From NCBI RefSeq assembly GCF_030068505.1, contig NZ_JAQOSO010000087.1, positions 62,001 through 126,000 of the forward strand: DNA of 64,000 nt. Direction: 5' to 3'. The translations under genes were made by a program, and so were the position numbers. Position 1 is the stretch's first letter. Every line of letters starts with the position of its first letter. This stretch comes from Roseofilum capinflatum BLCC-M114. Lineage in GTDB: Bacteria > Cyanobacteriota > Cyanobacteriia > Cyanobacteriales > Desertifilaceae. Positions 41,701 through 43,082 of this stretch are shown one piece after another. The notes beneath the pieces are model-generated. The model did no database searches, was not told the DNA's origin, and worked only from the letters and a program-made list of their open reading frames with translations.

Positions 41701-41729
41701 TATCAAATCCGAATAATCAGCTATGATTT

Positions 41730-41918
41730 GTCATTGCGAAGGTCACGCCAGTGGAATGAAGCAATCTCGATGTCATTGCGATGGAACGCAGTGGAATGAA
41801 GCAATCTCGATGTCATTGCGAATGGAACGCAGTGGAATGAAGCAATCCCAACCATCTCGGTAATCTTGGCGATTGCTTCCCTTTCCACTTCGTGGACATG
41901 AACGGTCGCAATGACATC
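41730..41918. repeat. Three direct copies plus one inverted copy of a roughly 40-base repeat
   Basis: The unit TCATTGCGAATGGAACGCAG TGGAATGAAGCAATCTCGATG, given here in two parts, occurs at 41731, 41773 and 41813 with small changes. An inverted copy lies at about 41871-41917. The same unit is seen once at 24228. The inverted copy allows a large hairpin after the pyruvate kinase gene. Confidence 0.85.
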
Positions 41919-41979
41919 TATTTAACCGGACATCATATAATTTAATCATTTACAATCCAGAGGAGGAGGTAATTCAACA

Positions 41980-42333
41980 ATGGCTACCTTAGAACATTTA
42001 CGCAGTGCAGTCATTCAAATATAGCGCTTTGCGCTGTATAGGTGGACAGTAGGAAAAGATCCCCCCTTGCCCCCCTTAAAAAGGGGGGAATAGGAAAGTC
42101 CCCCTTTTTAAGGGGGATTTAGGGGGATCAAGATGTCCCACATAACAGCGAAAACTGCTGTATTGGAAGAATTACACCACTATAATACTTCTCGTCAAGA
42201 AAAAGATGTTTTTTCGGAAATCATTTTGGATAAGGAACGAGATCATTATCTGTTGTTAGATGTGGGTTGGAAAGGAAAGGAGTATATTTACGATCCTTTT
42301 ATTATGTCTCACTGCTATTCCAATCAACTATAG
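41980..42333 (+). pseudogene. xisI: XisI-like gene split by a MITE and truncated at its 3' end
   Basis: A strong ribosome site GAGGAGGAGGT precedes the ATG at 41980. The frame reads MATLEHLRSAVIQI and then stops inside a 141-base insertion. After it, the same frame continues LEELHHYNTSRQEKDVFSEI, then ILDKERDHYLLLDVGWKGKE. Without the insertion, the block ILDKERDHYLLLDVGW matches the core of XisI (fdxN element excision controlling factor). The normal C-terminal half (IHIDI...DGTE) is missing; the frame ends DPFIMSHCYSNQL. A XisH partner is not seen. The gene cannot make a full product. Confidence 0.8.
42022..42160. mobile_element. MITE inserted in the xisI remnant, about 139 bp plus TA
   Basis: The ends TAGCGCTTTGCGCTGTATAG and (reverse complement of the right end) CAGCAGTTTTCGCTGTTATG are imperfect inverted repeats. 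TA at 42020-42021 and 42161-42162 looks like the target duplication. The inside is a large palindrome made of CCCCCCTT...AAGGGGG arms. No coding capacity. Confidence 0.85.
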
Positions 42334-42353
42334 TTCTTGAAACGGTGATGTTC

Positions 42354-43082
42354 CTAAGAGTCTGAGGGGCAAAATTGAGTGACAATCTGATTTTGAAGAC
42401 TTTGAACGGATTCTGAGGGCTGATCAACAGCGTAAATATATTTGAGCATATCGGATACAAGCTCTTGTTCTCCCAGGTAAAGGGCTTGATTGAGGGCAAT
42501 ATCAGCAGGCGTTGCACTTTCACCCGTCAGTTGGCTAGAAATGGCTTGCATTTGGCTATTAATCGATGAACGTTCTGCGCCGTCTAAAATTTGAAAGGTG
42601 GCTTGCATGTAGGGACGATCTGTTACCAGTTGCCAAATATAGGCAACTCCGGGTTGTAGGGGGGGAGCATCGGGGGGATAAATGATAAAGTTTTGAGTTG
42701 CCGCAACAGGAGATTCCCAGATGATTTCTTCGGTATCGTCTCGTAAAACTTGAATGGATTGAATCACGAGATCGTCGATTTTGGGCTGCCAAAGAAATAG
42801 GGGGCGATCGCTCCAAATCACTTCGGGTTCTAACCAAGTCAAGGTATCGAGATCCGTATCGCGAGTCGGTGAAATAGCACAAATTAACTCAACTCCACTA
42901 CTGGCAGCTCCCCGCGATCCTCCTTCTCCTTCATCGGCTGGAGGTTTCAATTCAATCAGGTTACGCAGTTTTTCTGTAATCTCTGGAGTTTGGGCAAAGC
43001 TGGACATGGCATGGGTTACCATGAGTCCAGCCCCAATTAAGCTCAGTAAACCCATGCGAGCATATTGCACCGTTTTAGCCAT
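42354..43082 (-). CDS. DUF928-family exported protein
   Basis: This 242-residue protein has a signal peptide (about 1-31, ending SSFAQ). The mature part shows DUF928 features: CAISPTRDTDLDTLTWLEPE, DRPLFLWQP, IIWESPVAA, and LQPGVAYIWQLVTDRPYMQA, followed by a helical C-terminus. The domain is expected to be beta-sandwich-like and periplasmic or outer. Its gene follows the CHAT-CHASE2 gene by 12 bases on the same strand, an association that is frequent in cyanobacteria, so the two probably work together. No biochemical function is known. Confidence 0.82.
   Translation of the reverse strand: MAKTVQYARMGLLSLIGAGLMVTHAMSSFAQTPEITEKLRNLIELKPPADEGEGGSRGAASSGVELICAISPTRDTDLDTLTWLEPEVIWSDRPLFLWQPKIDDLVIQSIQVLRDDTEEIIWESPVAATQNFIIYPPDAPPLQPGVAYIWQLVTDRPYMQATFQILDGAERSSINSQMQAISSQLTGESATPADIALNQALYLGEQELVSDMLKYIYAVDQPSESVQSLQNQIVTQFCPSDS

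Follow-up and report, generated by a model that had tools for sequence, protein, structure and literature searches.

The locus and its features

The window analysed here, a stretch of 64,000 nucleotides from Roseofilum capinflatum BLCC-M114, contains the remains of a xisH-xisI gene pair, in which the xisI part is split by a short block of inserted DNA. The features of the locus, and of two further loci with the same insert, are given below with the evidence for each in brackets.

41703 to 41939, no strand: stretch rich in repeats where most of xisH would be expected (dispersed partial matches in congeners; intact xisH in G005)
41942 to 41992, plus strand: 3'-terminal remnant of xisH (LIIYNPEEEVIQQWLP*) that overlaps with the beginning of xisI (translation; XisH end of G005)
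41948 to 42476, no strand: putative recombination tract (330 aligned positions 100% identical to G003, flanks 88%)
41980 to 42021, plus strand: 5' fragment of xisI (MATLEHLRSAVIQI) (translation; Pfam PF08869 on the joined peptide)
42020 to 42162, plus strand: IS630-type MITE, 139 bp between duplicated TA (copies, empty site in G003, IS ends)
42163 to 42333, plus strand: remaining part of the xisI remnant, homologous as far as ~42303; the last 27 bp before a stop reached by chance are unrelated (limit of the similarity to XisI of G001 at 42303)
L005 and L007, around 1501 to 1644: MITE in a PIN-domain gene and in an Eco57I-type restriction-modification gene

The xisI remnant and its lost partner

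The xisI reading frame starts with the ATG at 41980, is open for 14 codons and meets an in-frame TAG at 42022; it resumes with TTG GAA GAA at 42163 and ends with a stop at 42331-42333. Translation hence supported the first-pass annotation, in which codons were read up to the block, a TAG was noted within the insertion and the frame was said to continue at 42163. When the joint is closed on one TA, a peptide of 70 aa is obtained that matches the Pfam XisI family (PF08869, curated cut-off 25 bits) with an E-value of 1.3e-11 and 45.3 bits, which confirmed the proposed XisI identity. The match spans positions 1-59 of the 110 positions of the profile, about half. A complete XisI domain with an adjacent xisH was not found at the locus, as the 3' half of xisI and most of xisH are missing, and the xisI of the window is a pseudogene of the XisI family rather than a functional member. 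For the 27 bp where xisI breaks off at its 3' side (42304-42330), the congeners searched gave no match.

The intact arrangement is found in the congener Roseofilum acuticapitatum BLCC-M154 (G005), where the order is pyk - xisH (137 aa) - xisI (116 aa), with Pfam support, and where XisH ends with LIIYNPEEEIIEQWLP. Of xisH, the window retains no more than the final 16 codons (41942-41992), and the related genome G003 retains the first ~30 codons together with the same tail as the window. The outer ends of the repeat-rich stretch (ATATCAAATCCG and ATATGATGTCCG) resemble imperfect inverted repeats; perhaps this is another MITE. Both the window and G003 are without the 3' half of xisI and have the downstream join ATAGTTCTTGAAACGG in common. 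At the 3' break G003 is 58 bp shorter than the window, and since this deletion took out the exact breakpoint, a shared truncation is likely rather than proven.

The restored peptide belongs to the family of the XisI/XisH proteins of the fdxN element (PF08869 and PF08814; PMC4874684), and G005 shows the same overlapping order of xisH and xisI. In contrast to the genes of that element, the xisI of the window is a truncated remnant without partner, and one of 36 matches to the XisI profile in its own genome (5.4 Mb). Such a count is high for genes whose function is unclear and, considering that the host is of the Roseofilum type, a role in heterocyst excision is not to be assumed.

The IS630-type MITE

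The inserted block (42020-42162) measures 143 bp, consisting of 139 bp between two copies of TA (42020-42021 and 42161-42162), so that excision back to a single TA removes 141 bases (139 bp and one TA). This agrees with the TA-flanked block of 141 bases described before, as does the imperfect nature of the terminal inverted repeats: 20/32 positions match without gaps in the window copy, and 21/32 when the left and right ends of the consensus are compared. The young full-length copies start with TA(C/T)AGCG and finish with GCTGTA. The element is short and has no transposase ORF; its core of ~72 bp is a palindrome of a C-run and a G-run, which recurs with other flanks in the majority of the genomes searched within the order, and the strand folds much more strongly than shuffled sequences (z -7.4).

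The right end of the element contributes an ATG at 42133 that is in frame with the xisI remnant and yields an ORF of 66 aa (42133-42333). We consider it highly improbable that the insertion in this way made a new short gene that is still used: the ORF is indeed open, in frame with XisI and recognized as such by Pfam (7.9e-9), but the remnant covers positions 13-59 of the 110-position profile and is followed by an unrelated tail, the partner xisH is gone and the ORF shows no sign of expression or conservation.

Elements that could be related to a source of transposase were found in the congeneric genomes G001 and G002, which hold IS630-family elements of ~1.03 kb bounded by TACAGCGCTTTGCGCTGT. 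Their transposase is encoded in two frames, one with a 133-aa HTH_Tnp_IS630 product (1.4e-6) and one with a 201-aa DDE_3 product (1.8e-34). The ends of these elements match those of the MITE at 21-27 of 32 positions; they are alike and not identical, and these IS copies are therefore not the direct parent. Within the draft genome of R. capinflatum no complete DDE_3 transposase was found, only a 63-aa DDE_3 remnant and solo ends, and thus no transposase source is visible there now. Given the resemblance of the ends, the MITE is by sequence of type I, TA-targeting and IS630/Tc1-like, an IS with similar ends being known in congeners only, and it was presumably mobilised in trans by an IS630 transposase.

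Such a mechanism has a firm basis in ISY100 of Synechocystis PCC 6803, also of the IS630 type, which inserts at TA with duplication of the TA and of which a mini-element with 30 bp of each end suffices for movement (PMC2170065). The likeness extends to the combination of HTH and DDE_3 in the transposase, and the length of these ends corresponds to the roughly 30 bp that the MITE and the IS of the congeners have in common. The differences are that the MITE lacks a transposase and that the transposase of the congeneric IS is split over two frames. Programmed excision of the block was also considered, and is ruled out by the multicopy MITE nature of the block, its IS630-like ends and the lack of a recombinase.

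Other copies, interrupted genes and empty sites

The genome of R. capinflatum contains eight copies of the MITE with at least 97% identity (97-100%) over the full length, and many older or partial relatives. This multiplicity is far beyond chance. Five of the copies are mutually identical over 143 bp, from which the window copy differs at 2 positions. Besides the window copy, one (C57:16275-16421, L003) interrupts a xisH gene, another an Eco57I-type restriction-modification gene and a further one a PIN-domain gene.

Empty sites with a single TA are known at three of these loci. The window locus in G003 reads ATTCAAATATTGGAAG, with one TA, no MITE and the same neighbours. In the case of the split xisH, an intact paralog (L033) lies 10 kb away and has the empty site AAGCTATATTTAGCC; the two copies are identical at 823/824 positions on one side of the insertion and at 297/309 on the other. 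The site in the restriction-modification gene is empty in both G005 and G003. For the copy in the PIN-domain gene no orthologous empty site was found in the congeners. Both expectations of the first-pass annotation, namely that the element would occur elsewhere and that relatives would carry an empty allele, thus hold, the former in the own genome as well as in a congener.

These data also bear on the possibility that the block represents a REP-like palindromic repeat that grew, or was copied in, by a route other than transposition. The widespread palindromic core and the strong fold would be in line with such an origin, but the whole 139-bp unit including its ends is precisely present or absent at the three loci, the TA is duplicated and the ends resemble those of IS630 elements, which leaves it with hardly any credibility.

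Two of the eight young copies reside in xisH or xisI genes, which make up roughly 0.5% of the genome (our estimate, taking 36 pairs at about 0.75 kb each and a genome of 5.4 Mb). An enrichment in these genes is not claimed, as it was noticed post hoc and the numbers, though suggestive, are too small.

Order of events

From 41948 to 42476, the sequences of the window and of G003 are identical at 330/330 aligned positions (the MITE and the 58-bp deletion in G003 excluded), compared with 87.9% in the surroundings, and there is no other identical run of more than 67 positions. Such conservation is not expected of pseudogene and intergenic sequence, and the tract would most simply be read as the product of a recent exchange by recombination.

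Taken together, the comparisons make it very probable that the MITE recently inserted into a TA of a xisI relic that had already decayed. In this scenario, an ancestral xisH-xisI pair would have followed the pyruvate kinase gene, an arrangement retained in G005, and the greater part of xisH and the 3' half of xisI would have disappeared in the window lineage. The relic segment may then have been exchanged by homologous recombination between the window lineage and the G003 lineage, after which the 139-bp non-autonomous MITE of the IS630 family (Tc1/mariner-type) would have entered the TA of the relic by cut-and-paste in the window lineage only, thereby duplicating the TA and closing the reading frame after 14 codons. 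The MITE is most likely later than the exchange, as it is absent from G003.

The reverse order, in which a functional xisI was first struck by the MITE and the 3' half and xisH disappeared only afterwards, is very unlikely. The stop codon at the edge of the element would by itself end the protein; the MITE-free locus of G003, however, already lacks the greater part of xisH together with the 3' half of xisI and shares the downstream join of the window, and the flanks of the MITE show zero substitutions relative to G003. Considering that G003 is truncated at the 3' side and yet free of the MITE, xisHI had most likely ceased to be intact before the element arrived, with xisH gone and xisI probably truncated, and the MITE struck a relic. 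The decay in several steps that was proposed earlier thus stands, while its order has to be corrected: the loss of xisH and, most likely, that of the 3' half of xisI preceded the MITE.

Known MITEs and distribution within Roseofilum

Disruption of genes by MITEs is already known in cyanobacteria (PMC3542288, PMC10969869). The MITEs of Anabaena sp. 90 resemble the element described here in being short, gene-free and multicopy, with terminal inverted repeats, and in occurring in part inside disrupted ORFs. They were classed as type II, as that genome contains no IS with the same ends (PMC3542288), whereas for the MITE of the window an IS630 with similar ends is known, in congeners only. By its description as cited in PMC10969869, the cyanobacterial MITE Nezha is likewise short, gene-free and multicopy with terminal inverted repeats. 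The case in the window, mobile DNA in a dying gene, is ordinary in kind but unusually well ordered: it provides a base-exact series of gene decay in a cyanobacterium, for which the ancestral, insert-free and inserted states are all present in sequenced relatives.

Many more copies of the MITE are present in R. acuticapitatum (G005), one of which equals the five identical copies of R. capinflatum, and this species was the only organism matched in a public scan with a 29-base piece of the element. G003 contains a related repeat family (about 79% identity to the MITE). Many contigs of R. acuticapitatum terminate within the MITE, which indicates that the element breaks the draft assembly and that the copy number there is a lower bound. 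Judged from identical copies in species whose genomes are roughly one tenth divergent over the compared region, the family seems to have been active recently, and might as such be of use for tracing recent transposition and gene flow within Roseofilum. A more far-reaching idea, which we regard as rather unlikely, is that the family is in a present-day burst across Roseofilum species and preferentially lands or survives in xisH/xisI, PIN and restriction genes (4/8 young copies), perhaps since selection tolerates or favours the loss of selfish or defence genes of this kind. A diverged copy (88%) at L009, around 1501-1644, has no plain TA at its borders but a ~23-bp direct repeat (TATTCTGGTTTGAGTTTTGATTA).
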